DNA of 64,000 nt from Gammaproteobacteria bacterium. Lineage in GTDB: Bacteria; Pseudomonadota; Gammaproteobacteria; Eutrophobiales; Eutrophobiaceae. The position numbers and the translations under genes were made by a program. Of the stretch, positions 4,180 through 35,178 are shown one piece after another (position 1 is the first letter of the stretch; the number at the start of each line of letters is the position of its first letter). The notes beneath the pieces are model-generated. The model was not told the origin of the DNA, searched no databases, and was given only the letters and a program-made list of their open reading frames with translations. The stretch covers positions 1 to 64,000 of the forward strand of contig JAPOQU010000013.1 of assembly GCA_026710545.1 (NCBI GenBank). Direction: 5' to 3'.

Positions 4180-5037
4180 TCAGGCTGCAGCGCTTGTGAG
4201 CGTATCCTCCAGAACGGTCAATCCCATCCCTGATAACATCGGCAGGTAGTAATTCCGGTGGATCTTGTTGACCTTCGGGGTCAAGGCGCCGCGCATCCCT
4301 AGCCACACCATCATCTCCACCGCTTCGGCGCCACCACGTTCCATCCATTCATCATGAGGGATATCGACCAGGCTTTCCGGATCGTCTTCGATCCGGTCAA
4401 GAAATTCCTTGTCCCAGTCCGAGTTCATATGGCCGAAACGATCGCCGTGCAACTGGTGAGAAAGTCCACCGGTGCCCACAACAACAACACGCACGTCATC
4501 GGGATAGGACTCTACGGCTGTGCGCAGTGCCTGTCCGAGTTTCCATAACCGGTGCGGTGTCGGTAACGGATGCTGCAGCACGTTGACCTGGAAGGGCACA
4601 GTCCTGACGCTCCAGTCAGGCTCATGATCAAACAATAACGGCAATGGCACCAGGAGGCCATGGTCCATCACCATCTCCTGGCAAATGGTAAGATCGAATT
4701 CACTCTCTACCACCAGGGAGTTGGCCAGGTGCCAGGAAAAGACGGCATCACCCTTTACCGCGGGCAGCGGACGCGCGCCCCAGCCTTCATCACCGATAGG
4801 GTACTCATCGGCAACACCCAGCGCGAACGTCGGGTACTTGTCGAAAAAGAAATCGGTGCCGTGATCGTTGTACAGAACGATGGCGTGAGTTATCCCGACG
4901 TCCTTCAACCAGGCTTTTGCAGGCTTATAACCGTCAAACAGGGGCTTCCACCCCGGCGCCTCCTGCTGGTTTTGATCGAAAGCCACGCCAACCGAAGGAA
5001 CGTGGGACGAACCGATACCGGCAACTAGTCTACCCAT
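4180..5037 (-). CDS. ligB: Protocatechuate 4,5-dioxygenase beta (catalytic) subunit
   Basis: A class III (LigB-type) extradiol dioxygenase that opens protocatechuate to 4-carboxy-2-hydroxymuconate-6-semialdehyde. In the 285 residues the Fe(II) ligands H12 (GSSHVPS) and H59 (YNDHG) are where LigB has H12 and H61, and the GGLSHQLHGD block carries the conserved catalytic histidine. A glutamate in the GGAEAVEMM segment is the probable third ligand. It follows ligA by 25 bases on the same strand, and the two form an alpha/beta enzyme. pobA just upstream makes its substrate. Gallate or another carboxycatechol remains possible. Confidence 0.92.
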   Translation of the reverse strand: MGRLVAGIGSSHVPSVGVAFDQNQQEAPGWKPLFDGYKPAKAWLKDVGITHAIVLYNDHGTDFFFDKYPTFALGVADEYPIGDEGWGARPLPAVKGDAVFSWHLANSLVVESEFDLTICQEMVMDHGLLVPLPLLFDHEPDWSVRTVPFQVNVLQHPLPTPHRLWKLGQALRTAVESYPDDVRVVVVGTGGLSHQLHGDRFGHMNSDWDKEFLDRIEDDPESLVDIPHDEWMERGGAEAVEMMVWLGMRGALTPKVNKIHRNYYLPMLSGMGLTVLEDTLTSAAA

Positions 5038-5062: not shown

Positions 5063-5431
5063 CTACATATTCTGCCGCAATGGCACGTTGCGGGTTTTCA
5101 TGAATTCTTCCACCGATTCGCCACGCTGCTGCGCACCGATGGGGACCAGGCCATCACCGGTCATGGCGCCCACTTTCAACAGCATATAGATGTTGCCGCC
5201 GCCTTCTTCTATCAGTGCCTTCCAGTCCTTCTCTTTAACCTTTTGCTTCTCCCACGCGGAAAGACCGTAGCCATCCATGTAGCCATCCGGATCCTGACGA
5301 TAGGCCTCCCGGTTTTCGGCTTTGTGAAGAGAAAAGGCAAAACTGTTCAGCTTCAGCCCTTGCTGCGACCTTTGCCCGGTGAACACGCATGTGCCCGGGA
5401 TATGATCACTGTGACCGGTTTCTCTACTCAT
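5063..5431 (-). CDS. ligA: Protocatechuate 4,5-dioxygenase alpha subunit
   Basis: The small helical subunit that caps the LigB active site. At 122 residues it is slightly shorter than Sphingobium LigA (139). Recognisable segments are LNSFAFSLHKAENREAY and LLKVGAMTGDGLVPIGAQQR near the C-terminus. It lies between pobA (106 bases upstream) and ligB (25 bases downstream) on the minus strand, so the pair should be co-expressed. The ATG at 5431 opens MSRETGHSD. The position beside ligB and the family-typical C-terminal half make the call firm. Confidence 0.9.
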   Translation of the reverse strand: MSRETGHSDHIPGTCVFTGQRSQQGLKLNSFAFSLHKAENREAYRQDPDGYMDGYGLSAWEKQKVKEKDWKALIEEGGGNIYMLLKVGAMTGDGLVPIGAQQRGESVEEFMKTRNVPLRQNM

Positions 5432-11223: not shown

Positions 11224-12111
11224 TCAGCTGAGTTCTTCCGGCCAATACAGGCGCATCGGGTTGTCTACCAGCAGTTTTTGTTGCAGTTCTTCCGTAGGGG
11301 CAATACGAGGTATGTAATCTACCAGTTTACCATCGTCCGGCATGTGAGACTTCATGTTGGGGTGAGGCCAGTCGGTTCCCCATAACACGCGGTCCGGGAA
11401 AGCGTCGATCACACGCCGGGCGAAGGGGATGACATCTTCATAGCCTGGCGGACCAACTGCTGAAATCCGTTCCGGACAACTGACCTTCGACCAGAAATTC
11501 TCGTTCTCGGCCAACAGTTTGATAAACAGATTAAACCCTGGGCCATTGACCGGTTGGCTGACATCGGGGCGGCCCATATGATCCACCACCACCGTAGCAG
11601 GCAAGGATGTGAAGAAATCGTAATACTCGGCAAGGTCTGCTGCCTCAAAATAGATAACGATGTGCCAGCCCAAAGGCACGATTCGCTCTGCGATACCGGC
11701 CAGTTCGTCAAAGGGCAAGCTGTCTACCAGGCGCTTTACAAAATTGAAGCGTATACCGCGTACACCGGCTACATGCAATTGTGCCAATTCATCATCGGTT
11801 ACACTGGACCGCACCGTAGCGATACCCCGAGCCTTGCCGCGGGAGGATTGCAAGGCATGCGCCAGGGCACGATTGTCTGCGCCATGGCAGGTGGCCTGCA
11901 CGATCACATTGCGGGAGAAACCCAGGTGATCACGCAATTGCCACAGTTTGTCTTTGCCTGCATCGCAAGGGGTGTACTTTCTCTCCGGCGCAAAAGGGAA
12001 CTCTGCCACGGGGCCAAATACGTGGCAGTGTGCATCCACAGCTCCGTCAGGCACCATAAATTCAGGCGTACTGGGCGCCGGGTGAAATGGCAACCAATCG
12101 GGATCCATCAT
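11224..12111 (-). CDS. ligI: 2-pyrone-4,6-dicarboxylate lactonase
   Basis: An amidohydrolase that opens 2-pyrone-4,6-dicarboxylate to 4-oxalomesaconate. The 295 residues match LigI. The metal HxH is in GAVDAHCHVFGP near residue 28, followed by the LigI-typical FPFAPERKYTPCDA. Further marks are VVVDHMGRPD and the C-terminal WGTDWPHPN with the conserved metal-binding Asp. It overlaps the upstream dehydrogenase gene by 4 bases. Its presence means the pathway runs through the pyrone, so a dehydrogenase acting on the semialdehyde is needed. Confidence 0.94.
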   Translation of the reverse strand: MMDPDWLPFHPAPSTPEFMVPDGAVDAHCHVFGPVAEFPFAPERKYTPCDAGKDKLWQLRDHLGFSRNVIVQATCHGADNRALAHALQSSRGKARGIATVRSSVTDDELAQLHVAGVRGIRFNFVKRLVDSLPFDELAGIAERIVPLGWHIVIYFEAADLAEYYDFFTSLPATVVVDHMGRPDVSQPVNGPGFNLFIKLLAENENFWSKVSCPERISAVGPPGYEDVIPFARRVIDAFPDRVLWGTDWPHPNMKSHMPDDGKLVDYIPRIAPTEELQQKLLVDNPMRLYWPEELS

Positions 12112-12938
12112 TTACCGGCCTTGCTTCCGTCAGTAGTTCCGGCGTTTTGAATTGAGGGAATAGCCGGCAAGCCCTCGGACATGAGCTTTTTAAGATTTTC
12201 CACTGTGGAATCAGTCATCAATGGCTCAATGCCCAGTTCCCGCAATAACACGGCAGATGCCTCCATTTCATGCAAGCGGCGCTCAGCGTGCACCTCGGAG
12301 CCCGTAACCAGGCGGCCCAGAAAGCGTTCATCAGCCTGTGTAATTTCTGTACTGATGTTTTGCCACAACCACTCGGACAAACCCGCTTGTTGCGCACCGC
12401 GCAAGGCCTCAATGGTCACGGCGGCCAGTCCTTTCATAAATACACTGCGTAACAACTTGCGAGTGGCCGCGTCACCCGCCCTGGGTCCCAGAGATTCTAC
12501 CGGCATGCCCAGGGGCAAAAAAGATTTTACAAACCGGTCAGCCCCCGTACCTGCTGCCAGTGCCCGGGTACGTATGCCGCTGCCCGGCACGATCTCCACC
12601 AGGGCAACGTCGGCAAAAGCGATACCGCGTTCGTCTGCTTTCTCAGCCAGTTGGCGTTTCAAGCCCGCGGGTCCGGTAGAAAAATCGGCATAGAGTGCAT
12701 TTTGGGGTATCTGCTCGAAGGACTGTGACAATGCTGTGGTAGCGTCCGAGGCCGCCGTTAACGCAAGGACCGCATCCACACCGGCTACCGCTTCTCCCGG
12801 GTCTTCGAAACGGCTTACTCCAGCCGGCGTTATCACGGGTGCGGGATCGTAGGCTTGCACGGAAATACCGGCCGACAGCAGGTCTGAACTGATGATGGAG
12901 CCGGCTTCGCCCAGACCAAAAATGCACACGGTTTTCAT
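12108..12938 (-). CDS. 6-phosphogluconate dehydrogenase-like NAD(P) oxidoreductase (DUF1932 type); candidate LigC replacement
   Basis: The ATG at 12938 gives 276 residues starting MKTVCIFGLGEAGSII with a Rossmann GxGxxG. An upstream in-frame ATG at 12971 adds 11 residues. The C-terminal half (about 190-260, RKLLRSVFMKGLAAVTIEAL) resembles the DUF1932 helical domain of 3-hydroxyacid-dehydrogenase-like proteins. The 4,5-cleavage pathway needs a semialdehyde dehydrogenase, normally LigC of the GFO/IDH/MocA family, and none is present. This gene overlaps ligI by 4 bases, so it may fill that role. That function is inference. A side activity on a different hydroxyacid is possible. Confidence 0.75.
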   Translation of the reverse strand: MKTVCIFGLGEAGSIISSDLLSAGISVQAYDPAPVITPAGVSRFEDPGEAVAGVDAVLALTAASDATTALSQSFEQIPQNALYADFSTGPAGLKRQLAEKADERGIAFADVALVEIVPGSGIRTRALAAGTGADRFVKSFLPLGMPVESLGPRAGDAATRKLLRSVFMKGLAAVTIEALRGAQQAGLSEWLWQNISTEITQADERFLGRLVTGSEVHAERRLHEMEASAVLLRELGIEPLMTDSTVENLKKLMSEGLPAIPSIQNAGTTDGSKAGK

Positions 12939-13000
12939 AAATTCTCCAAATTCACCGGAGTTTAAAGACAAGGCGGTGCGCCAGCCCTGCTATGCCTTCG

Positions 13001-13648
13001 TCAGGAACCCCAGGAATTCATAAGCGCCGCGCTATGGCAAACCGTACCAAACATTAAATGAATGTTCAGTAGTGCCGCCTCATGCAGCTCTACCGCCGGA
13101 GAGCCGACACACTCTTCCGGAACAACAATATTATAACCACGCATAAAACCGTCTCGTATGGTCGAATCCACGCATACGTTAGTGGCCACACCCGTAACAA
13201 CAAGTGTCTTCACGCATTGTTGCTGCAAAACAGCGTCCAATTCCGTATCAAAAAAGGCGTTGTAGCAATGCTTGGTTATAACTAATTCCCCATCAAGTGG
13301 TGAAACACCAAAGAATTCGGCGCCCCAACTTCCCTCTTCACATAAAATCTCATTGGTGGAGCCCGCCTGTCGCAATTTGCTCAGCATATTATCCGGAATG
13401 TAATGAGGGTCGTATGCCGCTTTTATCCAGATAACTGTAACCCTGTTATCGCGTGCAACCTCAACGAGCTGATTTATCGAGCCTGCCACTTCACTGCTCT
13501 GACCAACTTCCATACCCAACACACGCTGAACATAACCTTCCCTGGCACAAAAGTCGTTCTGCATATCAATTACCAGCAACGCTGTATTTGCAGGTGATAT
13601 ATCCACCGCAAACTCCGCTGGCCGGGCTGATGCTGCCATGTCACTCAT
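13001..13648 (-). CDS. Isochorismatase-fold cysteine hydrolase
   Basis: The ATG at 13648 gives 215 residues and overlaps the stop of the upstream LigB-like gene as ATGA, so translation is coupled. The fold marks are the catalytic Asp in LLVIDMQNDF (D28), a Lys in VITKHCYNAFFDT and the nucleophile Cys in VTGVATNVCVDSTIRDG, preceded by the VA-T cis-peptide region. Family members hydrolyse isochorismate, maleamate, N-carbamoylsarcosine, nicotinamide or ureas. Coupling to a ring-opening dioxygenase suggests amide hydrolysis of a nitrogen-bearing cleavage product, as maleamate amidases do in pyridine pathways. The actual substrate cannot be read from the sequence. Confidence 0.85.
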   Translation of the reverse strand: MSDMAASARPAEFAVDISPANTALLVIDMQNDFCAREGYVQRVLGMEVGQSSEVAGSINQLVEVARDNRVTVIWIKAAYDPHYIPDNMLSKLRQAGSTNEILCEEGSWGAEFFGVSPLDGELVITKHCYNAFFDTELDAVLQQQCVKTLVVTGVATNVCVDSTIRDGFMRGYNIVVPEECVGSPAVELHEAALLNIHLMFGTVCHSAALMNSWGS

Positions 13649-14487
13649 GTCAGATCCCAGAACGAACAGCCCAGACCGCATCGTAATGCCGGTTCTGCCT
13701 CATAACAGATAGTTTTTGCAGGATGGTCTCCGACTGTCCCCATTGCGGCTATCCAGGATAATAGCTCTGTCGTCCCGCCATCTCCGGCAGCCAGCATGCC
13801 TTCAATAGTCACTTCCTTTAACACCCTTTGCGGATTTCCTTCTTCCAGTAAAGCCAGGAACCAGCGATCATATTCTTCATCTACTTCAAAATAGTTAGGG
13901 CCACCCGGGTCATGAGACAGACCCCCCGTTGCCATAATTATTACACGATCGCCCTCAGGCAGCATGCCGCGTACGACTTCAGCCAGCGTTTCACCCATTT
14001 GATAACACAGATCAACGCTCGGTAAGGGAGGAACGGTACAGTTCATATTGATAGGGATTAGAGGAACATCATGCTCCGGTGTAACAAAGTGCAGAGGTAC
14101 TGACCAGTTATCATCAAATAAAAGATCATCGGAAAATGCAACACGAATTCCTGATCGATTTATCTCTCTTGCCAGGGTACGCGCATGATGCGACTTGCCC
14201 AATACCTTGTAGTCAGGCAAGGCAACCCAATCTTTGAACCATTCAGCAGGCCCACTCCATTCAGAGGCAACTCCTATACAGAAGTCGGGCGTATTGTCAA
14301 AAGGCAAATTCAACGCATGATCATTGGCAATGCCGATTATGTAATCCGGTTTTTTTGCACGTACCAGGACACCCATTTTCCGGAAGCCTGCCAGTATGCG
14401 CTTTTGAGTATCTTCCGGCGCTTTGTATAGCCATCCAGTCAAGGACGGGGCGTGACTAAGAGCAGCAGTTGCAACTATTTCTGCCAT
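13645..14487 (-). CDS. Second LigB-type extradiol dioxygenase, substrate unknown
   Basis: The 280-residue catalytic subunit has Fe(II) ligands H12 (ALSHAPS) and H57 (IANDHALNLPF), and the conserved MATGGLSHDPGGPNY block. A C-terminal GGTTELLSWIAAMG holds the probable glutamate ligand. It is clearly diverged from ligB at 4180, so it is not a recent duplicate. It is preceded by a LigA-like subunit and followed, with a 4-base overlap, by an isochorismatase-type hydrolase. It probably opens a different carboxycatechol or aminophenol-like ring; gallate and 3-O-methylgallate are also possible. The call at family level is firm, the substrate is not. Confidence 0.88.
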   Translation of the reverse strand: MAEIVATAALSHAPSLTGWLYKAPEDTQKRILAGFRKMGVLVRAKKPDYIIGIANDHALNLPFDNTPDFCIGVASEWSGPAEWFKDWVALPDYKVLGKSHHARTLAREINRSGIRVAFSDDLLFDDNWSVPLHFVTPEHDVPLIPINMNCTVPPLPSVDLCYQMGETLAEVVRGMLPEGDRVIIMATGGLSHDPGGPNYFEVDEEYDRWFLALLEEGNPQRVLKEVTIEGMLAAGDGGTTELLSWIAAMGTVGDHPAKTICYEAEPALRCGLGCSFWDLT

Positions 14488-14548
14488 TGTTTCAGGGTTC
14501 CAATTTTTTCAGATTTTTGAATTTTTAGATAATCTGTCTTAATTCTAC

Positions 14549-14848
14549 TCAATGCAGATCATCAAGATGCCTGGCGTAGGCCTTGCATGCTTCGCTCTCA
14601 TTATGGTTGTGAGCAACGCCATGGAACAGACGGCTTATCTGCGGCAAGAAATATGGATGTACTCCCAGTTCAGCCAATTGACCAATATTTTCCTCGCGCC
14701 ACGCGGCTTTTTCCTCTTCGGATAATCCATATACAGCCATAATTTGTTCGAGATCTCTGGTAAACCGTTCGTACATTTCCGGACTCCGTCGAACCTCAAA
14801 AACCATACGATTAGACGGCAGAGTGCGATCAGTATTCATAATCCCCAT
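14549..14848 (-). CDS. Second LigA-like dioxygenase small subunit
   Basis: The ATG at 14848 (MGIMNTDRTL) follows GAGGAG at a good distance and gives 99 residues. An in-frame start at 14899 would add 17 unlikely residues. The body VFEVRRSPEMYERFTRDLEQIM...YGLSEEEKAAW...GVHPYFLPQISRLFHG is the LigA-type helical subunit domain seen in LigAB and related enzymes. It stands 61 bases upstream of the second LigB-like gene, the same order as ligA-ligB. It heads the minus-strand operon that continues through the hydrolase, dehydrogenase and ligI. Confidence 0.85.
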   Translation of the reverse strand: MGIMNTDRTLPSNRMVFEVRRSPEMYERFTRDLEQIMAVYGLSEEEKAAWREENIGQLAELGVHPYFLPQISRLFHGVAHNHNESEACKAYARHLDDLH

Positions 14849-14935
14849 GTTAGACTCCTCATGTTGATGTAGATTGACGCTTATTGTTGTTGAGATCAAA
14901 GGCGGATACTACTGACCAAAAGCACAGGTAGTAGC

Positions 14936-14977
14936 CGACCCGCTGAACATGGCAATATCAGGTTGAAAGAGTACTAG
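14936..14977. repeat. Solo end of the CTAG MITE family
   Basis: GACCCGCTGAACATGGCAAT, then a short diverged stretch, then GTTGAAAGAGTACTAG, matches bases 89-130 and the reverse of 21064-21105 with a few changes. Only one end is present. It lies in the 272-base gap between the LigA-like gene and the amidohydrolase. Nothing else was recognised in that gap. Confidence 0.75.
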
Positions 14978-15120
14978 AATCCTTGAATGGTTTTTTCCTT
15001 TACAAAAAGGTCAAGTTTTTGTGGCGATGCACAATCGCATTGACAGCTACATGCTTGTCGGTATGAGGCGAAGCTTCGCTAGACTATGGCTGACACCAGT
15101 GTAAATACCAATTAAGCCGT

Positions 15121-16887
15121 ATGAGAGTAGTCCTCAGAAGTGCAGTATTATCCGTACTGATTTTTATCGGATGTTTTAGCCAGGCCGAAAACTTTTCCGG
15201 ACAAGTATTCACTAACGGAAAAATTATTACCGTTAATCAAAACTTCGATATCGTTGAGGCCCTTGCTATACGCGGAGGCAAGTTTCTTGCCGTGGGCAGT
15301 AACAAGCAGGTACTGGAGGCAGCCGGATCCAATGCCGAGATCATTGACCTGAAGGGGAGAACAGTAATTCCAGGTTTTATTGACGGCCATGCCCACATGG
15401 ATAGAGAAGGTTTGAAGTTTATATTGCCATCTCTTCAAGGAGTGCACTCCATTGAGGATATTCTTGCAGTCGTCCGGCAGGAGGTAAAAAACAAAAAACC
15501 CGGAGAATGGATTGTCACCATGCCCATCGGGGATTACCCTGACTTCAATAAAAAACCCAGCCAGCTTAAAGAGAAGCGCTACCCTACTCGCTGGGATCTG
15601 GATCGAGTCGCACCCAATAATCCTGTGTATATTAAAGGCCGATGGTTTTACTGGAGCTTTGATTCTCCAATAGTTTCTATTGCTAACAGTTATGCACTGA
15701 AACTGGCTGGGATCAGTAATGAAACGCAAGCTCCTTACCCGGCGTTAAAAATTTTAAAAAACAGTTTGGGTGTGCCAAACGGAATCTTTGAAGAGCCCGG
15801 TCCTCTTACTGCCATTGAGTATAGCCTGATGAAAGTGGCGCCTCGCTTTAGCCACCAGGATAGAGTCGATGCCTTGATATATTCCATGCAGCAATACAAT
15901 ACTGTCGGCACCACCAGTGTTTATGAAGGTCATGGAGTTGCACCACCAGTAATACAGGCCTATAAAGAGTTGCATGAACAGGGCAAACTCACTGTAAGGA
16001 GCCACTTGGTGATGAGTCCGGCCTGGGATACTGTCGCCAAAGTCAAACCTCTGACGATAATGCGAAATTGGGCAAGTTACCTCAGTGGTAAGGGCACAGG
16101 AGATGAACTGCTTAGAATAAGTGGTATTTATACTGCAGTTGGCAATTCAAGAGTAGATGATATTCGCCGTAAAGACAGCAACTACCCAAACTGGTCCGGT
16201 TTTAGTGTTGATGTATTATTACCGAAGGACAGGGCATCTCTATTTGATCTACTGTCGGCCTCCGCCAAGACAAATATACGCGCCCATGCAATTACATATC
16301 TGGAAAAAGATATTGATCAGCATTTGCAGGTCCTGGAGAAAGTACATCAGGAAACCCCCATCGATAAGAAGCGTTTTGTAATGGAGCATGTAAGTTTTGT
16401 CAGTGAACAAAACCAGCATAAAATTAAAAAATTGGGAGTGATCCCAACAGTAATACCTGGTCCGATGATCTGGAAAAGCGGCTTGAGGCAAACCAGAAAC
16501 CTGGAACCGGTAAAAGCAAATACCTATGTGCCACTGAAAAGCTTTGTCGACAAAGGGATCCCTTTTGTTATCGGGACCGATAATATGCCCTACAACCCGC
16601 TACATGCATTGTGGGCATCCGTTACTCGAGTGGATGCAACCACCGGGAAAGTAAGCTCCCCTGAACAAAGAATATCCCGAAAAGAAGCGCTGAAAGCGTT
16701 AACTATAAACGCAGCCTATTTAAGTTATGAAGAAGATATAAAAGGTTCCATTGAAGTGGGCAAACTGGCGGATATGGCCATTCTCTCCAAAGACTATTTG
16801 ACAGTGCCTGATGAAGAAATTCGCCATATTGAAGTATTAATGACCTTACTGGGTGGTCAAGTAGTCTTTAAATCTGAAAATTATTAG
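15121..16887 (+). CDS. Exported amidohydrolase-3 (YtcJ-like) family protein
   Basis: The 588-residue metal-dependent hydrolase has an N-terminal signal peptide (hydrophobic 7-19, likely cleaved after FSQA), so it acts in the periplasm. The amidohydrolase signature GFIDGHAHMD carries the HxH metal ligands. A GTDNMPYNPLHALWASV segment near residue 490 has the conserved Asp, and the C-terminal LSYEEDIKGSIEVGKLADMA is the classic beta-sandwich return. YtcJ-like enzymes act on amide, formamide or ester bonds of small molecules. The substrate is unknown. The gene is convergent with a MalT-like regulator 25 bases away, and an MFS transporter follows beyond it. It looks visibly richer in A+T than the lig genes. 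Confidence 0.85.
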   Translation: MRVVLRSAVLSVLIFIGCFSQAENFSGQVFTNGKIITVNQNFDIVEALAIRGGKFLAVGSNKQVLEAAGSNAEIIDLKGRTVIPGFIDGHAHMDREGLKFILPSLQGVHSIEDILAVVRQEVKNKKPGEWIVTMPIGDYPDFNKKPSQLKEKRYPTRWDLDRVAPNNPVYIKGRWFYWSFDSPIVSIANSYALKLAGISNETQAPYPALKILKNSLGVPNGIFEEPGPLTAIEYSLMKVAPRFSHQDRVDALIYSMQQYNTVGTTSVYEGHGVAPPVIQAYKELHEQGKLTVRSHLVMSPAWDTVAKVKPLTIMRNWASYLSGKGTGDELLRISGIYTAVGNSRVDDIRRKDSNYPNWSGFSVDVLLPKDRASLFDLLSASAKTNIRAHAITYLEKDIDQHLQVLEKVHQETPIDKKRFVMEHVSFVSEQNQHKIKKLGVIPTVIPGPMIWKSGLRQTRNLEPVKANTYVPLKSFVDKGIPFVIGTDNMPYNPLHALWASVTRVDATTGKVSSPEQRISRKEALKALTINAAYLSYEEDIKGSIEVGKLADMAILSKDYLTVPDEEIRHIEVLMTLLGGQVVFKSENY

Positions 16888-16912
16888 GTACTTTCGTATC
16901 AAATTGCCTCTT

Positions 16913-19597
16913 TCATAAATTCGGTATTGGAACAACACTTTTTCTTGACCTGGCAGCGCTGACAGCCTGGGTTCGATTATGAACACCCAGTTTGACGTAG
17001 ATGTTGGCCAGGTGGAATTTAACGGTTGACTCACTGATACCAAGGTCTCCGGCAATAACCTTGTTTGGCCTGCCTTCTGTAATTTTATCCAATATTTCGT
17101 CTTCTCGGGGTGTAAACAGACTGGACGGCTTTTGTAGTTTCTCTTCGATCTGCCTGATAATATCCAGCGTAAATTCGGTCAACCTGAGATCAGTGTTCAG
17201 CGTGTTGATATTACGCAGCAGGAGTTTCAATAGAGGGATTATTCTTTTGCCTTCATTGAGCAAGGCACGAATCAGATTCTCCTTCATCGCTTCATCCAGG
17301 CCCATGGATAAGAGGGCCAAGGCCTCTTGCTCCTCCCCCAACTCAGCTAAAACCTCAGCCTTCAGGACATGTAGCTCGATCCGAAAAGGCAGCCGATCTG
17401 CCGCCATCTCTCCTGGTTGGATAGTATTCAGCACTACCAGTGCTTGTTTTGGCTTACCGAGGTACAAGTAGAGTCTGCTCAACACCAGGGTTGCGACCTG
17501 ACATTCCCGCCAGCCAATTTCATTCTGTTCATATAGCTGTCTAAACTGTGTTACCTGGGGATTGTCTCGGACAACTTGTTGGGCTTGTTGCAATTCTCCC
17601 GCGCGGGTCAGCAATTCAACTCGCAGTAAAATCACAAGCCACTGTAATGGTACCATACGTCGCCTGCTGGCAAAGTCGTCAGCAAGCTCCAGCAGCGCCA
17701 GCGCGGGCTCGAGGCCATCCCGGGCAAATACTATGCTGACCGCGGTCGTATAGCTGTTGATGCACACCTCCGATTGGATGGATAAGTGCCCTAGTTGATC
17801 TGAAGCACAATCCAGAAATGCATAGGCGGTATCCATCTCATTGCGTTGGTAATGCACGCCGGCGGTTAACAATTGCACTAACTTCATCAGCGACGCATCA
17901 CTGGCAAGGTGTTGGCGCGTCAGTTCTCCCGCACGGCCGTAATATCTTAGCGCATCATTAAGTCTGCCGCAGGCCATGGAAATTATTCCCAGATCCAGGC
18001 TGGCATGGTATTCAGAATAGAACGCCTGGGCTCTGCCGAGCTTATCTACTGCAGTAAGAGCGGCCATCCGGGCAGCGGAAAACTTCCCTCGCCTGAAATA
18101 CAATAACCATAATGAGCAATAGACCCAGCCATGAAGCCAAAGATCTGAGCCGGATACTTCTTCGCAAGCACGTTCAGTTTCCTCGATTTCTGCTTCCAGG
18201 CTGGGATAGTCCACATAACCGACCAGGATCAACCGCAGCGTACGCGCGTAGCGCAGAAAGTTTGGGCTCGGAGTATAACTTTCTGTAGCTTTCGCCTCGG
18301 CCAGTAATTTCTTTGCCTGATCGATATCACCTTCGTTGGCGAAGATCATGGCTTTCCCAATTTTCAACGATGGGTTTTGATCTATCCAATCATCAGGAAT
18401 GGAAGACAATATCCGTTGCAATAACTCGAATCCTTGTTGCCAACCGAGGTTGGGGCCACCTACTTTCTCAAATAAAGTGGCAGTGAGTTCTATGTCGCCG
18501 GCACGAACCGCGTGTTCAATGGCATCCAAAGCTAAATCATTGTCAGCAAACCATTCGCATGCGCGCTGGTGTAAAGTGATCAGATAGGCTTTTCCTTTTC
18601 GTTTCAGCAGTCTACGCAGATAATCGGCGAGTAAGGAATGGTGGCGATACCAGGTATGCTCGTCGTCGATGGGATCCAGCAAGCCATCTAATGATTTTAA
18701 AATTTCGAAGATTTGTTCGCTATCATCACGACCTAAAATCGTGTTGGATAAATCACTGCAAATCCTGTCCAGAAATGCGGTATCGATTAAAAATTCCTGG
18801 CAAGTCTCCGGTAAAGTTTCCAGTACCTGGTGGGCAAGATAATCGGCTATGTCTTCACGAACACTCCCGTATCGTGCCGGTGGTTTGGAGCCCTGCCGGT
18901 CGTCAAGCCAATGCAAGCGCATGAGCTGCAATGCAATGGGCCATCCCTCGGTCTGATCTGCCACTAAAGTCAACGTATCATCGGTGCTGTCTAATTGCAT
19001 AAACTCACAGATTTCCTGTTCGACGAAGCGTAGTTCGTTGGCGGTCAGTTGCAACAGAAGTCCTTGAGCGCGCAACGCCGAGATGGTCAGGGATGGGAAA
19101 TCTCGGCTGGAGATAGCGAGTTGGAAATTCTCGGGTGACCTTTTGATTAGCAGATCCAATACAATATCAACTTCAGAAGACTCGATGAAATGATAGTCTT
19201 CCAATATAAGGACGGTATTCTCAGAACTTTTTTCCAATTCGCCACACAAGGTAATAACAACTTCCGGCGAGGTGAGTCGGTGCAGGGGATTGCTCATGAA
19301 ATTTCGCAAAGCTTTTAAATCAAGCCCTGCCTCCTGCAAGGCGTTAACGATATACATCAGAACAGTCAGGGCGCTCGAGTCGACGGGATCAAAACTAACC
19401 CAAGCGGTTTTTAGGTTCATTTCAACCCGATGGTTGTACCATTGTGCCAGCAATGTCGATTTGCCGTAGCCCGCAGGTGATTGCACGAGAGTGAGCCGCT
19501 GTTGCTCGTTCATCAAGCGGTTAAGCAAATGCACTCTCGGCAAGGTATGGTCACCGAGTGGTGGTGGGCGGAGTTTTCCAGAAAGAACTGAGTGCAT
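16913..19597 (-). CDS. MalT-like LuxR-family ATP-dependent transcriptional activator
   Basis: A large STAND-type regulator of 894 residues from the ATG at 19597 (MHSVLSGKLRPPPLGDHTLP), which aligns with typical MalT-family starts. An ATG at 19702 adds 35 residues. The order is an NTPase domain with Walker A SPAGYGKSTLL (about residue 45) and Walker B-like LILEDYHFI, then a winged helix, a long TPR-like helical array (about 400-800) and a C-terminal LuxR HTH (FTPREDEILDKITEGRPNKV, ISESTVKFHLANIY). By family knowledge, effector plus ATP triggers oligomerisation and activation. Likely targets are the flanking amidohydrolase and the divergent MFS gene 196 bases away. Confidence 0.9.
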   Translation of the reverse strand: MHSVLSGKLRPPPLGDHTLPRVHLLNRLMNEQQRLTLVQSPAGYGKSTLLAQWYNHRVEMNLKTAWVSFDPVDSSALTVLMYIVNALQEAGLDLKALRNFMSNPLHRLTSPEVVITLCGELEKSSENTVLILEDYHFIESSEVDIVLDLLIKRSPENFQLAISSRDFPSLTISALRAQGLLLQLTANELRFVEQEICEFMQLDSTDDTLTLVADQTEGWPIALQLMRLHWLDDRQGSKPPARYGSVREDIADYLAHQVLETLPETCQEFLIDTAFLDRICSDLSNTILGRDDSEQIFEILKSLDGLLDPIDDEHTWYRHHSLLADYLRRLLKRKGKAYLITLHQRACEWFADNDLALDAIEHAVRAGDIELTATLFEKVGGPNLGWQQGFELLQRILSSIPDDWIDQNPSLKIGKAMIFANEGDIDQAKKLLAEAKATESYTPSPNFLRYARTLRLILVGYVDYPSLEAEIEETERACEEVSGSDLWLHGWVYCSLWLLYFRRGKFSAARMAALTAVDKLGRAQAFYSEYHASLDLGIISMACGRLNDALRYYGRAGELTRQHLASDASLMKLVQLLTAGVHYQRNEMDTAYAFLDCASDQLGHLSIQSEVCINSYTTAVSIVFARDGLEPALALLELADDFASRRRMVPLQWLVILLRVELLTRAGELQQAQQVVRDNPQVTQFRQLYEQNEIGWRECQVATLVLSRLYLYLGKPKQALVVLNTIQPGEMAADRLPFRIELHVLKAEVLAELGEEQEALALLSMGLDEAMKENLIRALLNEGKRIIPLLKLLLRNINTLNTDLRLTEFTLDIIRQIEEKLQKPSSLFTPREDEILDKITEGRPNKVIAGDLGISESTVKFHLANIYVKLGVHNRTQAVSAARSRKSVVPIPNL

Positions 19598-19793
19598 AAT
19601 TCTCAATGATTTGCACCTGCCTGTAGTGATTAGGCTCCGATAACTCCAGTGAGGAACAGAAAAATTTAAGCCACCATTTGAGAAAGGTATTATGCTGAAC
19701 AATTGTTAATCTGGCAAAAAAATGTGGTCTGCCCCAGGGTTATCATGAGTTTTCCTAAACGGTGCGTGGCATAAGAACGGAGAGAGGGTCACA

Positions 19794-21020
19794 ATGACCG
19801 AAGAAATAACAGAATCAACACCAATGAATGGTAAGAGCTTTTTGGGCTACGATTACAAGGCATTACTACTAATCGGAGGCTGCGCTGGAGCCTGGTTTGT
19901 TGGTTACCTGGTTAACGGCATTGCACCGATTTTCATGCAAACGCTTGGTTCAACGTTAGCTATTTCAGAGAGCGCTGCGGGCTACCTGATATCAATAGAG
20001 TTTGCGGGTGCGGGGTTGGCAACCTTATTTGTTGGTGCTCAAGTCGACAGACTTTCAAAACGATCAGTTGCCTTGGCCGGGTGTTTGTTGGCGGTTGCCG
20101 CCAATGTTGGCAGCATGTTCATTGATCATTATGGAAGTTTGTTGGCGATAAGGCTGCTTGCGGGTATCGGAACGGGATCTGCTGTGGTTGGCGGTGCAGC
20201 AGCCGTGGCAAGGTATCGTGAGCCGGAGCGGATGTACGGTGTCGTAAATGTACTGCTGGCAATTTCCTTTTCGGCATCGGTAGTAATCGTCAGTAACGTT
20301 CTGGGAGTATTTGGCAAACCGGGTGTGTTTGGGTTTGTTGCAGTAGCCTATGCCGCGATGATACCCCTGATCTTTCTACTGCCGACTGATATTAATTTAA
20401 GCGGGGAAAAGCAAGAGAGACACAAACTGCCTGTTGTGGGCTTAGGAGTTACTTTCGTTGCTGGTTATGTCATTGCTATGATCGGACAGAACGCTGGCTG
20501 GGTCTTCGCAGTGGCAATTGGTGAGTCCAGTGGGTTCAATCTAGAACAAATTGGTAAAATTATCGGCATTTCGGCCATAAGCGGTGTGGCGGGAGCGATG
20601 CTGTCGGCGTCGATTGGCACACGATTTGGTCGTGCAATTCCGGCGGCCGCAGGGGTATCGGCACTAGGTTTAACCTGGGGTACGATGTGCCTGGTTCCGA
20701 GTTCAACCATGTTTCCCGTCCTTATTATTGTTAATTCGATCTCATTCTATTTTTGTGTCTCGTTTCTGGTTGGCGTGGCGGCCAAGCTTGATGAATGGGG
20801 CCGGTGGGCTTCTGTGACAGCAGGATCAACGTTGTTCGGAAGTATTATAGGACCTGCTGTCGGGGGTATCCTAGTACAGTACGGAGGCATAAATGTACTG
20901 GGCTGGTCAATACTGTGCAGTACCGGTATTTCGCTAACTCTGATTCTATTCGTGGTAATACTCCTCGCCGGCAAGGAGGCCCGCCAGGCGAATACCGCAA
21001 CTACCCCCGATCCGCGCTAA
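19794..21020 (+). CDS. Major facilitator superfamily transporter
   Basis: The 408-residue inner-membrane protein has about 12 hydrophobic segments. The MFS inter-helix motif is seen as VGAQVDRLSKRSVALAG after helix 2. A short charged N-terminus (EEITESTPMNGKSF) precedes helix 1. The start ATG at 19794 has GGAGAGAGG just upstream. It is divergent from the MalT-like regulator and near the exported amidohydrolase, so it probably imports a product of that enzyme. This link is inference. The right flank is the MITE-like element at 21064. Confidence 0.88.
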   Translation: MTEEITESTPMNGKSFLGYDYKALLLIGGCAGAWFVGYLVNGIAPIFMQTLGSTLAISESAAGYLISIEFAGAGLATLFVGAQVDRLSKRSVALAGCLLAVAANVGSMFIDHYGSLLAIRLLAGIGTGSAVVGGAAAVARYREPERMYGVVNVLLAISFSASVVIVSNVLGVFGKPGVFGFVAVAYAAMIPLIFLLPTDINLSGEKQERHKLPVVGLGVTFVAGYVIAMIGQNAGWVFAVAIGESSGFNLEQIGKIIGISAISGVAGAMLSASIGTRFGRAIPAAAGVSALGLTWGTMCLVPSSTMFPVLIIVNSISFYFCVSFLVGVAAKLDEWGRWASVTAGSTLFGSIIGPAVGGILVQYGGINVLGWSILCSTGISLTLILFVVILLAGKEARQANTATTPDPR

Positions 21021-27947: not shown

Positions 27948-30818
27948 GTGGGTAAGGTATTGCCCATATCAATATTAGCGCCATTTCGAACTGTGTCAGA
28001 GAACCAATATCAACAAAACAGGACGCGTGCCGAGCAGGTAGCTACAGGCAAGTGGATATCTCCCGGACAAACCGTAAAAATTGCAAATTTTGGGATCAAA
28101 GGTGGTTATTTTTATTATGGGGGAGAACAATTAAAGGCTCGGGATAATTTATGGCACCGAAGCATCACCGATGATCCTGAAAGGGGTATAGGGTACGTAG
28201 AATGGCTGGCAAGCAGTCGGGATGACCCTGATTGTGACATAGGCTATGTTTTTCTGTATTTCTATGGGATTGAACGTAGGCTTCTTGTGGACAGAAAACA
28301 ATTGTCTCCTTTTGATCGGCAGGCTTTGATCGATGAAATATGGCGATTAAAAAGAATCTATGGTGGCGACAGTACTTTCAACCGAACTGCTACTAATCTT
28401 TTAGCCCATGTTTGGGTCATAATTCGTGAAAAGTTTCGAACAATACCAGCAAAGCCTGATGAATCATTGCTGACTGGGACACGAGAATTTACCTCTGCAT
28501 TCAAGTATTTGTTGGGCAAGGCAGTGGCTGGTGGCACTCCTGTTTCAAGTGAACTTGCCCTAGCATGGGTTAGAAGTCATCCGAAGATTATCGATTTTCT
28601 TGATCCTGCTATGCTTTATAATAAAGGGTTCAGATCATCGTTTGAACTTCGCTATCAGGGAAAATACGGACAAGGCATTACTATTTGGCCCGATAGCACA
28701 AAATTGCAATTGGTGTATCATCCTGCAAGCCCTACTCTCGGTTGCCATATTATCAAGTTAGATATTCTTGACCCCAATCCTGGTCGCTTAACACGCCCAT
28801 TTATAAAGCTGGTACAACTCGCAGAATTATGTGTGGGTCACAGGTTAAATTCTGTCCCCAAAGTTACAAAGAAGAACATTAGAAAGTCTGCCAAGTGGAT
28901 TTATCCTGGTCAAATTGTGAAGATTGGGAATATTAAAATCAAAGGTGGATATTTTTATTTTGGGAAGAGCATTGATAATACCGAAGCTTCACTGATAGAT
29001 ACTGATTTACAGGTCGACGAATCATCTTCTGAATATAGACTGAGGTTAAACAAATTTTGGCCTCGATATCGTGATATGTCTCCTCGAAATCGTGGCGCTT
29101 ATTTGCGCTGGCTCGCAAGCAACCGTGATGATCCAGACTGTTACATGGGCTATGTATTTCTGTATTTCTACGGCATCGAATACAGGCTTCTTGTTGATGG
29201 AAAGCATATATCTTCTGTGGAGCGAGGTGTATTAATCGAAGAAATATGGCGGTTAAAGCGAATATATGGTGACAAGAGTTCTTTCAATAATGTAACAAAC
29301 TTTTTCGATTTCCTTCGAATCATTGAAGCACAGTCCGATAAATCATTGCTAGCCGGCACACGACAATTCACCAAGGAATTCAAGTATTTATTGGGCAAAG
29401 CAGTGGCCGAAGGTGCTCCCGTTTCAAGTGAGCTTGCTCTGGCTTGGGTTAGAAGCCATCCTGATTTTAGTCTCAGGTCTCCTACCAGACGTTACACAAA
29501 AAAGTTCGACTTGTTGTTTAAACTGCGGTATGAGGAAAAATATGGGCCTGGGATCATCCTTCAACCAAACAAAACTAAATTACGTTTGGACTATTATCCT
29601 GCAAGCACTACTCTTCGACGTTATCGGAGTATTACGTTAGATCTTCCTGATCCCAGCCGTTTAAAGGCCCCAGTTAAAACACTGATGCACATCGTAACGT
29701 TGTGCACTGATGAGTTGGATGCTTATTATGAGCAGGCCAAGTTTAGAAACCTGAAATCCTGGCTTCGCTCCAAGACGACAAATTCTTTTGGTATCGTTCA
29801 AACAGAAGATCTTTCATCAAAAGTTTGGGGAAACAGTCCTATAAAGATAAACAAAAAAGAAGCAGAAACGTTAGCAAACCTTGTTGAAAAAGCCGGTTTT
29901 GGATTAGCGCCTGATATACGGTTCCACCACGCTAAACCAGAAATCAGCGGACGTGTTGTTATATTCGAAAATGGACATGGCCCGGATTTCACTCCTGGTG
30001 ATGAGTTTAACCATCTTAGAACGATTCTGCGGCTGGGAGCCATGATTGCAACCGCAGACGGTCGAGTTGATAAAACGGAAATATCTGTAGTTGACAGGTT
30101 AATTTCAGATAACTCTGATCTTTCAGAAACCGAAAAGAAATCCTTACATGCTTATTTACATTGGCGTCTCAAAACGAGACCTGATATGAGTGGCCTTAAG
30201 AACCAATTACAGAACTTAAATTATCGTCAAAAGTCAGCAATTGGTCACATTCTTGTAGGTGTCGCTCTTGCAGACGGAAAAATCGAACCAATGGAAATTA
30301 AACAACTCCGCAAATTATATACTTTGCTGGGACTTGATGATGCGCTGGTTCCCAGTGATATTCATAATCTGAAATCAAGGAAAATCAAATCTTCACCCTA
30401 TGGCAGTCAGACACAAACGAAGGTAAACAATCTATCAAGCCCTGCAACTTCGCTTAATCCCGTACTGCTTGATGTATGTAAAGAAGAAACCGAAGGCGTT
30501 AAGGCTGTTCTTGACTCAATCTTTGTGGAAGAGAATATCAAGGATGAAAACGAGAATATGAGGGGCGATGTTGTCGCAACTCCACAAATAACAGGGCTTG
30601 ATGATGCTCACACACGCTTCTACGAGAAGTTAATTTGCAAGGATAAATGGTCATCAGAAGAAGTTGAAGATATATGTAAAGAATTAAATCTAATGGTTTA
30701 TGGCGCGATTGAAGTCATCAATGAGTGGGCATTTAATAATGTTAATGCTCCTCTGATAGAAGACGAGGGCGTTATCAATATTGACCTTGCGGTTGCACAA
30801 GAAATACGAGCGCTTTAA
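27948..30818 (+). CDS. sngA: TerB-domain protein of a Shango-type defence operon, with duplicated TerB_N module
   Basis: The 956-residue protein has two tandem copies of a TerB N-terminal-type module. Copy 1 spans about 34-300 (GKWISPGQTVKI, GYVFLYFYGIERRLLVD, LALAWVRSHP). Copy 2 spans about 313-595 with the same motifs, GYVFLYFYGIEYRLLVD and LALAWVRSHP. A TerB-like helical domain follows (about 685-810, MIATADGRVDKTE and GVALADGKIEPMEIKQL), then a TerB-C-like tail. Only 18 bases separate it from an ATPase gene, which overlaps a helicase gene. TerB-type protein, ATPase and helicase together match Shango, a described anti-phage system. The GTG at 27948 is the first in-frame start; a GTG at 27993 is an alternative. 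Confidence 0.8.
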   Translation: MGKVLPISILAPFRTVSENQYQQNRTRAEQVATGKWISPGQTVKIANFGIKGGYFYYGGEQLKARDNLWHRSITDDPERGIGYVEWLASSRDDPDCDIGYVFLYFYGIERRLLVDRKQLSPFDRQALIDEIWRLKRIYGGDSTFNRTATNLLAHVWVIIREKFRTIPAKPDESLLTGTREFTSAFKYLLGKAVAGGTPVSSELALAWVRSHPKIIDFLDPAMLYNKGFRSSFELRYQGKYGQGITIWPDSTKLQLVYHPASPTLGCHIIKLDILDPNPGRLTRPFIKLVQLAELCVGHRLNSVPKVTKKNIRKSAKWIYPGQIVKIGNIKIKGGYFYFGKSIDNTEASLIDTDLQVDESSSEYRLRLNKFWPRYRDMSPRNRGAYLRWLASNRDDPDCYMGYVFLYFYGIEYRLLVDGKHISSVERGVLIEEIWRLKRIYGDKSSFNNVTNFFDFLRIIEAQSDKSLLAGTRQFTKEFKYLLGKAVAEGAPVSSELALAWVRSHPDFSLRSPTRRYTKKFDLLFKLRYEEKYGPGIILQPNKTKLRLDYYPASTTLRRYRSITLDLPDPSRLKAPVKTLMHIVTLCTDELDAYYEQAKFRNLKSWLRSKTTNSFGIVQTEDLSSKVWGNSPIKINKKEAETLANLVEKAGFGLAPDIRFHHAKPEISGRVVIFENGHGPDFTPGDEFNHLRTILRLGAMIATADGRVDKTEISVVDRLISDNSDLSETEKKSLHAYLHWRLKTRPDMSGLKNQLQNLNYRQKSAIGHILVGVALADGKIEPMEIKQLRKLYTLLGLDDALVPSDIHNLKSRKIKSSPYGSQTQTKVNNLSSPATSLNPVLLDVCKEETEGVKAVLDSIFVEENIKDENENMRGDVVATPQITGLDDAHTRFYEKLICKDKWSSEEVEDICKELNLMVYGAIEVINEWAFNNVNAPLIEDEGVINIDLAVAQEIRAL
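28841..28857. repeat. Half-palindrome remnant at the internal duplication joint of the TerB gene
   Basis: CAGGTTAAATTCTGTCCCC resembles the right half of the GGGGACAGATTT palindrome family. It lies exactly between the two TerB_N copies and encodes the atypical linker HRLNSVPKVTKK. It may mark where the duplication arose. The resemblance is partial, so this is suggestive only. Confidence 0.4.
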
Positions 30819-30836
30819 CTACGAGGAGAGTTATCT

Positions 30837-32144
30837 GTGGCGAAGGACAAAATTCGACCAAAAGAACGTGATTCAATCATCCGGTCACTGAAATCAGGCG
30901 TTACACCCAAAGTGGGTATTCGGCACATCCAGGTAGGACGCGTGAATGAAATAAAATCACTATACAAAGATATTGAAAGAGTGGTTTCCGGAGGCGCTGT
31001 TTTCAGGCTTATCATCGGTGAATACGGTTCCGGCAAAACATTCTTTCTCAGTGTGGTGAAGTCTATCGCGTTGGAAATGAAAATGGTAACGGTGAGTGCC
31101 GACCTCTCCCCTGATAGACGCCTACATGCTTCGGGCGGTCAGGCAAGACATTTATATTCTGAACTTATGCGGAATCTTGCCACCCGAAATAAACCGGAGG
31201 GTAACGCTATCAACAGCGTTGTGGAGCGCTTTATCACACTGGCAAGGCAAGAGGCTGACAACCATGACAAAACAGTAGTATCAGTTATCAATGAGCGTTT
31301 AAGTCAATTGACCGAGCTTGTTGGCGGTTATGATTTTGCCAAGGTTATAGAAGCATACTGGGATGGCTTTGAATCCGGTAATGACATTCTGAAAGCACAT
31401 GCCATTCGCTGGCTGCGTGCGGAATATACCACAAAGACAGATGCAAGGAGGGATCTGAATGTTAGAACAATTATCTCCGATAATTCATTTTACGATTCGC
31501 TGAAATTACTCAGTCTGTTTGTTCGGCAGGCGGGTTATGCAGGGCTTCTGGTGAACCTGGATGAGATGGTCAATCTTTACAAGCTTAATAATACGCGAGC
31601 CAGAGTATCAAATTATGAGCAAATAATGCGTATATTAAATGATTGTTTACAGGGGACAGCTGAATATATTGGTTTCCTGATGGGGGGCACACCTGAATTT
31701 CTTCTGGACACTCGTAAAGGTCTCTATAGCTATGAAGCCTTGCAGTCAAGATTAGCTGAAAACCCCTTTGCACAAAAAGCGGGCGTGATTGATTACTCCT
31801 CGCCGGCCTTACATCTGGCAAATCTGACCCCCGAGGAACTATATTTACTGCTTGGTAACTTAAGGCATGTGTTCGCTTCTGGTGAGCAAAACAACTATCT
31901 GGTACCGGATAAAGCGCTAAAGTCATTTTTAAATCATTGCAGCCAAAAAATTGGCGATGCCTACTTCAGAACGCCTCGAAATACAATTAAAGCTTTTGTC
32001 GATATGCTTGCCGTACTTGAGCAAAACCCTGGTATCAATTGGCATGATCTTGTTGAGAAGATAGACATTGAAGAGGACAAAGTGAGCGATATGCCGGAGG
32101 TGGAGACAATGAGAGAGGATGAACTGGCAAGTTTCACAATTTAG
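30837..32144 (+). CDS. sngB: BrxD-like (DUF2791) P-loop ATPase of the Shango-type operon
   Basis: The 435-residue ATPase starts at a GTG (30837) preceded by GAGGAGAG. Walker A is GEYGSGKTFFL (about 61-71), and the Walker B-like strand is GLLVNLDEMVNLYKL near 240. AEYIGFLMGGTPEFLLD and ENPFAQKAGVIDYSSP are typical of the BrxC/BrxD-related family seen in type 2 BREX. No other BREX gene is here. Its end overlaps the helicase gene by 26 bases. In Shango the ATPase is the second of three genes, as seen here. The mechanism is not settled; it is likely to couple ATP hydrolysis to the TerB protein and the helicase. Confidence 0.85.
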   Translation: MAKDKIRPKERDSIIRSLKSGVTPKVGIRHIQVGRVNEIKSLYKDIERVVSGGAVFRLIIGEYGSGKTFFLSVVKSIALEMKMVTVSADLSPDRRLHASGGQARHLYSELMRNLATRNKPEGNAINSVVERFITLARQEADNHDKTVVSVINERLSQLTELVGGYDFAKVIEAYWDGFESGNDILKAHAIRWLRAEYTTKTDARRDLNVRTIISDNSFYDSLKLLSLFVRQAGYAGLLVNLDEMVNLYKLNNTRARVSNYEQIMRILNDCLQGTAEYIGFLMGGTPEFLLDTRKGLYSYEALQSRLAENPFAQKAGVIDYSSPALHLANLTPEELYLLLGNLRHVFASGEQNNYLVPDKALKSFLNHCSQKIGDAYFRTPRNTIKAFVDMLAVLEQNPGINWHDLVEKIDIEEDKVSDMPEVETMREDELASFTI

Positions 32145-34386: not shown

Positions 34387-35178
34387 TCATTCTGACAGCA
34401 GAGAGATCAACGCGTTCCGGACCTTTTCCGCCATCATGTCCGGTTCCCACGTGTAGCCCGGGGCAAGAAGGGGTCCGATATCGCTTGTAAAATTTTCATC
34501 TCGCAGCTTGTCGGTAATGTTGTCCTCGAACTGCTTTCTCGAGACTGTATGGCCTCCGTGGTCCATGTACTCGTAGAAGATATTGACTATCTTTTCGGGG
34601 CTAACCTTCCCACTATCCAGTGCAATAGCGAGATCAAAGAGATCACGTCCCTTCTTTCGCTGATACAGAGCGCGGAGCTTCGTGCCCAGCAGTTCGTTAA
34701 GCTCGTAGCTCTGGATTGAACACGATCCTTCGTACCACCGAGAGCGTAGTTCGAAAGGTATCTCTCTGAAGCCTTCCACAGCGAAGTGTTCGCGTGTATT
34801 GATTTCGACTTTTAGCCGAAGGGGTAATTGCGGAGAGCCTTCGGACTCAAATCGGTAGTTGAAGGTGATGCGGGACTGGGTTTGTTTGTAATTCGGTTTA
34901 CCCAACCACGGATTCAGAACCTCATTCAGTGCGGCCATGACCGGTCCCGCCGGTTCAGCGTTCACCTGAACGAGATCAATATCTTCAGAATACCTTGCCG
35001 GTGGCAGGTGGAGTTTAAACAGAGCCGTACCGCCTCGGAAAGCAAGCGCGTTGTGTAATACTTCATTCGAGAATATCTCTACGAGCGCGCGGCTGATGAC
35101 GAGGTCCTGCTCGACCTGTGCGTCATCTACCCACGGCGCTTGGTCCCGCCACTCTGTGATGTAGTCTTGAGGGATCAT
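34387..35178 (-). CDS. abiEii: AbiEii nucleotidyltransferase toxin
   Basis: The 263-residue protein belongs to the AbiEii/DUF1814 family of nucleotidyltransferase-like toxins. The signature is FRGGTALFKLH followed by PPARYSEDIDLVQV, with the paired acidic residues DxD of the catalytic site. ELLGTKLRALYQRKKGRDLFD is the family's second conserved block. Its ATG overlaps the stop of abiEi as ATGA. AbiE systems cause abortive infection and act as type IV toxin-antitoxin pairs. Related toxins modify tRNA ends; that activity is assumed by family. The gene is convergent with the Shango-type operon, forming one defence island. Confidence 0.93.
   Translation of the reverse strand: MIPQDYITEWRDQAPWVDDAQVEQDLVISRALVEIFSNEVLHNALAFRGGTALFKLHLPPARYSEDIDLVQVNAEPAGPVMAALNEVLNPWLGKPNYKQTQSRITFNYRFESEGSPQLPLRLKVEINTREHFAVEGFREIPFELRSRWYEGSCSIQSYELNELLGTKLRALYQRKKGRDLFDLAIALDSGKVSPEKIVNIFYEYMDHGGHTVSRKQFEDNITDKLRDENFTSDIGPLLAPGYTWEPDMMAEKVRNALISLLSE

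Follow-up and report, generated by a model that had tools for sequence, protein, structure and literature searches.

The window (the whole stretch of 64,000 nucleotides of gammaproteobacterial DNA analyzed here) contains three adjacent genes coding for the two subunits of an extradiol dioxygenase, LigA2 and LigB2 (together LigAB2), and for an isochorismatase-family cysteine hydrolase (ISO). By sequence tests this trio appears to be a class III extradiol dioxygenase system other than a protocatechuate or gallate dioxygenase, and on balance we lean towards its being a two-step catabolic module, in which LigAB2 would open a nitrogen-bearing ring and ISO would cut an amide-type C-N bond. As far as we searched, the clade to which LigB2 belongs, the His-to-Asp change in its active site and its coupling to an amidase are undescribed, the component families themselves being known. 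A sequence-only reading of this DNA had raised the possibility that the combination is undescribed, and in keeping with it no literature match was found for a LigB coupled with an isochorismatase, amidase, formamidase or aminomuconate deaminase, in a search that covered mainly freely accessible papers, so that an earlier description may exist.

Identification of the ligA-ligB-ISO trio

The same reading had described a diverged LigA/LigB pair followed by a Cys hydrolase through an ATGA overlap, and this arrangement was borne out (Table 1). The ligA2 gene starts with an ATG with GAGGAG upstream of it, and the end of LigB2 (...CTG ACA TGA) and the start of ISO (ATG AGT GAC) have ACATGAGTGAC in common. 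The length of ISO is counted from this ATGA start; the frame delimited by the ORF caller is longer and reaches upstream to 13681, within ligB2.

Table 1. Positions of the trio and of the genes discussed with it (window coordinates)
Feature	Position	Strand	Remarks
First pair: LigB1, LigA1	4180-5037, 5063-5431	-	NF009902 421 bits, above cut-off
LigI-type PDC hydrolase	11224-12111	-	PDB 4d8l (LigI) E 7e-108
DUF1932/NAD-binding dehydrogenase	12108-12938	-	ATG 12938; PF09130, PF03446; PDB 3qsg E 1e-25
Lineage-specific low-GC stretch	12953-21020		trio, Amidohydro_3 protein, MalT-like LuxR regulator, MFS transporter
ISO, RutB-like isochorismatase-family cysteine hydrolase	13001-13648	-	215 aa; PF00857 157.6 bits (cut-off 27)
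ligB2, catalytic class III extradiol dioxygenase subunit	13645-14487	-	280 aa; PF02900 109.7 bits (cut-off 26.3)
ligA2, small alpha subunit	14549-14848	-	99 aa; PF07746 35.1 bits (cut-off 25.3)
Amidohydro_3 protein, possibly secreted	15121-16887		within low-GC stretch
MalT-like LuxR regulator	16913-19702		within low-GC stretch
MFS transporter	19794-21020		within low-GC stretch

Both the PF02900 domain and the predicted fold place LigB2 among the class III (LigB-type) extradiol dioxygenases. Its AlphaFold2 model (pLDDT 87.5; alignments for these runs were used without rows from plasmid records) best matched LigAB (1bou, E 2e-20), with further matches to 3wku, 8k04 and 3vsh. The description of the pair as diverged also held, LigB2 being 25% identical to the first LigB of the window. 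It is 25–26% identical to LigB-type proteins, 33% over aligned residues to PydA, a 3,4-dihydroxypyridine dioxygenase, and 18–19% to 2-aminophenol dioxygenase. ISO combines a PF00857 domain with the Asp-Lys-Cys triad of isochorismatase-like cysteine hydrolases (Asp28, Lys126 and Cys159), which is invariant among the linked ISOs aligned.

Conservation of the module and exchange of its amidase

The order ligA-ligB-ISO recurs in 10 further loci and is thus more than a chance arrangement; with the window it is seen at 11 loci across alpha-, beta- and gammaproteobacteria. Nine of these relatives (47–61% identity) were detected when LigB2 was used to scan bacterial genomes, and a search of plasmids added Bosea sp. 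Tri-49 (49% identity); the hosts are eight alphaproteobacterial MAGs, Caballeronia and Bosea. At every one of the ten, ligA lies directly upstream and ISO directly downstream of ligB, the distances between the genes ranging from -8 to +59 nt. The ISO of the window scored 324 bits with a profile built from the linked ISOs, its own sequence included, as compared to 153 for the next-best ISO-like protein in the 53 genomes of the family. Members of the LigB2 clade were found in 4 of 53 genomes of the family, 2 of 369 sampled from the class and 1 of 398 sampled from the phylum, the present genome being counted in each.

Five other relatives of LigB2 (40–45% identity) come from three same-genus genomes, the gammaproteobacterium G171 and a plasmid of Corynebacterium glutamicum; at these loci the gene beside ligA-ligB codes for an FmdA (PF03069, acetamidase/formamidase) instead of ISO. 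In a maximum-likelihood tree the 16 LigBs form one clade with a support of 100/98, within which the 11 ISO-linked LigBs group at 99/97, with the Corynebacterium LigB as their sister (96/86). Hence, an amidase gene is present at the dioxygenase in all 16 members (ISO in 11 and FmdA in 5), and the two amidases are unrelated. Neither ISO nor FmdA was seen beside ligB in the nine outgroup loci for which neighboring genes are annotated (PydA, CarBb, MhpB, LigB, the H52 and Priestia relatives, L019, L020 and L054); alpha/beta hydrolases follow MhpB, CarBb, PydA and the Priestia relative. The simplest reading is a single replacement of FmdA by ISO in the clade. The occurrence of two unrelated amidases at the same place suggests that both hydrolyze one kind of bond, and this exchange is the best evidence for an amide-type C-N bond in the ring-opened product. 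A placement of PydA as sister of the clade was unsupported after the addition of PydA relatives, PydA grouping with H52 (96/94) and the deep nodes being weak. Several FmdA-type loci also have hydantoinase A/B or UbiD genes beside FmdA (hydantoinase A/B at L017:11009-14975 and at L025:2105-7944, the latter with UbiD too), and the substrate of these hydantoinases may be a lactam of the same pathway as the FmdA-type dioxygenase.

An altered active site in LigB2

LigB2 keeps the iron ligands His12, His57 and Glu241 and the base His192, and given these intact metal ligands and catalytic base, together with the intact triad of ISO, both enzymes look active. The second acid/base histidine (His124 in DesB, His127 in LigB and His115 in MhpB) is replaced by Asp126, and Asp is found here in 16 of 16 clade members. 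The equivalent position is occupied by His in LigB, GalA, MhpB and CarBb, by Asn in PydA and by Tyr in the 2-aminophenol dioxygenase CnbCb. In DesB, His124 forms a hydrogen bond to a hydroxyl of the substrate and is essential, the H124F variant having no detectable activity (PMC3962378). The presence of Asp126 in place of the usual His suggests that the neighboring group of the substrate would not be an ordinary catechol hydroxyl; it might, for example, be a ring NH, a keto or an amino group. Another invariant residue, Arg269, lies in a C-terminal stretch that aligns with LigB around Ser269-Asn270 and may bind a carboxylate. Alignment of LigA2 with its counterparts at the other loci shows G-V-H-P-Y...Q where LigA has its canonical G-N-I-Y...K stretch.

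These features bear on whether LigAB2 could simply be a second dioxygenase for protocatechuate or gallate that happens to lie beside an unrelated hydrolase, as might be supposed from its superfamily and from the protocatechuate 4,5-cleavage set alongside. LigB2 misses all of the curated NCBIfam cut-offs for these enzymes (115.7 vs 290, 96.6 vs 317 and 83.8 vs 412), its LigA partner is altered in the pocket stretch, and the second catalytic His of protocatechuate 4,5- and gallate dioxygenases is Asp126 here and Asp throughout the clade. Given this change in all 16 members, and an amidase linkage that is both conserved and swapped and hence not casual, we hold such an identity to be very improbable. 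LigAB2 also departs from the 2-aminophenol 1,6-dioxygenases in having a LigA-type rather than LigB-like alpha subunit and Asp rather than Tyr at the second-His position.

Affinities of ISO and the bond that it might cut

The nearest characterized or solved kin of ISO are RutB (3.4e-29) and the biuret hydrolase BiuH (3e-23), with the maleamate amidases scoring lower (NicF 7.6e-12, Ami 5.8e-13). Its AlphaFold2 model (pLDDT 87.9) likewise matched RutB and biuret hydrolase ahead of the maleamate amidases, the comparison to RutB/BiuH giving about 31% identity and a TM-score of 0.87. As both rankings favor RutB/BiuH, we rejected the maleamate amidases as its nearest kin, and the earlier guess of a maleamate amidase is weakened. 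ISO lies below the equivalog cut-offs of both RutB (TIGR03614, 132.6 vs 377.95) and BiuH (107.9 vs 370). Most of its pocket positions other than the triad vary in the ISO alignment, suggesting that the substrate need not be identical across the loci. RutB cleaves an N-acyl enamine derived from the opening of a pyrimidine (uracil) ring (PMC5806882), and some RutB-like enzymes are reported to have side activities (gamma-lactamase; PMC12553813).

The activity of RutB has a parallel in what ISO would do if the substrate were a hydroxypyridine or pyridone. LigAB2 would then act in the manner of PydA, converting a (carboxylated) dihydroxypyridine into an N-formyl enamide to be deformylated by ISO or FmdA, as is done in known pathways by the alpha/beta hydrolases PydB, KpiB and NicD. 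The N-acyl enamine cut by RutB is comparable (PMC5806882), KpiB is thought to deformylate 3-(N-formyl)-formiminopyruvate in the 3,4-dihydroxypyridine route (PMC7356986), FmdA belongs to a formamidase family, and PydA, a PF02900 protein too, has likewise lost the second His, to Asn. However, PydA did not group as sister of the clade in the tree, it lacks a LigA gene and the hydrolase that follows it is of the alpha/beta type, and the 2-hydroxymuconic semialdehyde pathway encoded at the trio locus L014 (see below) offers no direct entry for a pyridine ring; we regard this substrate class as a tentative possibility.

Relatives of both ISO and FmdA are primary-amide hydrolases, and this would also be compatible with a dihydroxybenzamide, that is, a carboxamide-bearing catechol opened by LigAB2, with ISO hydrolyzing the side-chain amide before or after cleavage. 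The conversion of carbamoyl-CHMS by ISO to CHMS would suit the genes that follow in this genome, and carbamoyl-HMSA with a decarboxylation would suit L014. Such a catechol, however, gives no reason for the loss of the His that positions a catechol hydroxyl (PMC3962378), nor for an amidase fixed beside the dioxygenase, and appears quite unlikely to us.

Genomic neighborhoods

The first LigA/LigB pair of the window, which lies outside the module and served for comparison, keeps the canonical DHG His in LigB1, which is 45% identical to Sphingobium LigB and 47% to a Burkholderia gallate dioxygenase. With a PobA-family 4-hydroxybenzoate 3-monooxygenase (over its subfamily and under its equivalog cut-off), a LigJ-like Amidohydro_2 protein, LigK (372 bits vs 304.5) and an OMA tautomerase (499 vs 440), this pair makes up a protocatechuate 4,5-cleavage set. 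ISO is separated by 62 nt from the DUF1932 dehydrogenase gene, which overlaps that of LigI by 4 nt, and these two genes may be co-transcribed with the trio; promoter and terminator scans returned no more than in shuffled sequence and thus lend this no support.

The DUF1932 dehydrogenase and LigI are members of the first cluster, that for protocatechuate. Two genomes of the same genus (G016 and G013) have this cluster at about 90% nucleotide identity with the dehydrogenase gene (88–89% identical) adjoining LigI and without the trio, and since they keep both genes in this way we rejected the pair as a conserved part of the trio pathway. The LigI of the window shares 90–94% identity with that of three same-genus genomes and 69% with that of a fourth; in G014 LigI is present and the dehydrogenase is absent from the cluster. 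No other trio locus has LigI joined to it. Nucleotide synteny with G016 and G013 ends at 12952, 14 nt before the ATG of the dehydrogenase, and the GC3 of the trio and of the three genes beyond it is 0.43–0.52 against 0.58–0.71 around them, marking them as compositionally foreign. The end of synteny and the low GC3 suggest that the trio was probably gained horizontally in front of the dehydrogenase-LigI pair, or else lost in the congeners. From its position it may now use the dehydrogenase-LigI pathway, so that the proposal that it feeds the same lower pathway retains the adjacency of these genes in its favor, whereas the congeners that keep both genes without the trio, and the uniqueness of the junction, count against it. 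The MalT-like regulator or the MFS transporter of the low-GC stretch may serve the trio pathway.

The DUF1932 dehydrogenase occurs with LigI in protocatechuate clusters without a true LigC in G000, G013 and G016, and is also found beside a LigC in G008 (L089); in G014, whose cluster lacks it, LigC is absent too. It is a candidate for an unrelated CHMS dehydrogenase or an accessory enzyme. Further along, the window has a complete candidate Shango defence system at 27948-34359 (SngA E 6e-95, SngB 8e-178, SngC 1e-270), adjoined by an AbiEi/AbiEii pair at 34387-35978.

Across the trio loci, an AHD-type amidohydrolase, an FCD regulator, Rieske oxygenases, a thioesterase and HyuAB are each present in part of the set only, suggesting that the pathway may differ among hosts. 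FCD/GntR regulators of one family lie near the trio in L009, L011, L014, L015 and Bosea, and VanA-type Rieske oxygenases or a reductase-like protein in L008, L009, L010 and L015. The oxygenases (L008:3789-5984, L010:11127-12191 and L015:7403-8680) hint at a demethylation or hydroxylation step ahead of ring opening. Directly after the trio in L009 is an unusual fusion of two cupin domains with an NAD-binding and a Rieske-reductase-type 2Fe-2S domain (11539-13260), and thioesterases of one family (PF13279, 59% identical) adjoin the trio in L009:8233-8736 and L010:8824-9276. The AHD amidohydrolase was rejected as an obligate fourth gene, as it adjoins the trio only in L014 and Bosea; the genomes of L008, L010 and L013 do have relatives (about 55% identity), which are not linked to the trio, and none was found in that of L011.

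L014 encodes a complete 2-hydroxymuconic semialdehyde lower pathway. Its combination of A-B-ISO with an ACMSD-family (PF04909) amidohydrolase, a 2-hydroxymuconic semialdehyde dehydrogenase and the lower meta pathway is what might be expected if LigAB2 opened an aminophenol-carboxylate of the 3-hydroxyanthranilate or 3-amino-4-hydroxybenzoate type, with ISO or FmdA as an aminomuconate-type deaminase. In the present genome the product would be CHMS, to be oxidized and hydrolyzed by the next two genes, and the trio does lie directly upstream of the dehydrogenase and LigI. An amidase-family gene within the aminophenol cluster of the pCNB plasmid and the match of the LigB2 fold to 2-aminophenol dioxygenases point in the same direction. 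Nevertheless, LigB2 has only the low identity to 2-aminophenol dioxygenase given above, the junction with dehydrogenase-LigI is confined to this genome, and the aminomuconate deaminases known to us are RidA-like or of the amidase-signature type, none being isochorismatase-like. We consider a substrate of this type unlikely.

Proposed function and its implications

In the two-step module that we favor, LigAB2, a class III extradiol dioxygenase that uses Fe(II) and whose active site is altered, would open a hydroxylated, nitrogen-bearing and probably carboxylated ring next to a ring hydroxyl. The product would hold an amide-type C-N bond, such as an N-formyl enamide, carboxamide or enamine, which ISO, with its Cys-Lys-Asp triad of the RutB/biuret-hydrolase type, would cut to release formate, carbamate or ammonia, FmdA doing the same job in the sister lineage. 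Entry into central metabolism may in this genome be via the neighboring PDC/OMA pathway, and later steps would differ by host. The nitrogen in the ring-opened product, the order of the steps, the likely carboxylate and the point of entry are all deduced rather than observed; ISO could also act on the substrate ahead of ring opening, or on something unrelated. The favored substrate is a carboxylated hydroxypyridine/pyridone or an aminophenol. The idea of a second, chemically different ring-opening route is supported by the conserved module, the amidase exchange and the loss of the His, the nitrogen-bearing nature of the aromatic being probable.

A wider interpretation, close to evenly poised in our judgment though not quite reaching that point, is that the clade is a separate extradiol line, with a His-to-Asp change for a carboxylated nitrogen ring and an obligate coupling to a swapped amidase (FmdA, then RutB-like), and would give environmental bacteria, some of them marine, an aerobic pathway for a natural N-aromatic that has so far gone undescribed. 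The trio is a concrete candidate for a missing ring-opening route of nitrogen heterocycles or aminophenols, and the clade offers a natural test of extradiol cleavage without the second acid/base His. Such members of the LigB family are readily labeled protocatechuate/gallate dioxygenases or left hypothetical, the dioxygenase subunits in Bosea and Corynebacterium being annotated "hypothetical protein"; the His-to-Asp change with an amidase partner is a clade marker that provides a testable sign of different chemistry.

Comparison with known systems

LigAB (protocatechuate 4,5-dioxygenase) and DesB (gallate dioxygenase) resemble LigAB2 in fold, metal ligands and base His, and LigA and LigB are separate in LigAB as they are here; LigAB2 differs from them in the Asp for the second His, the changed LigA pocket stretch and the amidase partner. 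In the PydA/PydB pair of the mimosine pathway, too, a dioxygenase of the LigB family lacks the second His and precedes a hydrolase, but Asn stands in place of Asp, there is no LigA, the hydrolase has the alpha/beta fold, and PydA is 33% identical to LigB2 over aligned residues. The 2-aminophenol 1,6-dioxygenases (AmnBA, CnbCaCb) share the class III fold, a nitrogen-bearing ring, a deaminating step and a lower meta pathway like that of L014, and are set apart by their alpha subunit, the Tyr and their low identity. In the nicotinate route (NicX/NicD/NicF), a dioxygenase also acts before hydrolysis of the opened nitrogen ring, and NicF is isochorismatase-like, as is ISO; NicX, unlike LigB2, is not LigB-like (PMC7356986), and NicF is more distant from ISO than is RutB. 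RutB and BiuH are Cys-Lys-Asp amidohydrolases like ISO, and RutB too acts on the product of a ring opening, that of uracil, whereas ISO falls below the equivalog cut-offs of both and has a non-heme iron dioxygenase as its partner.
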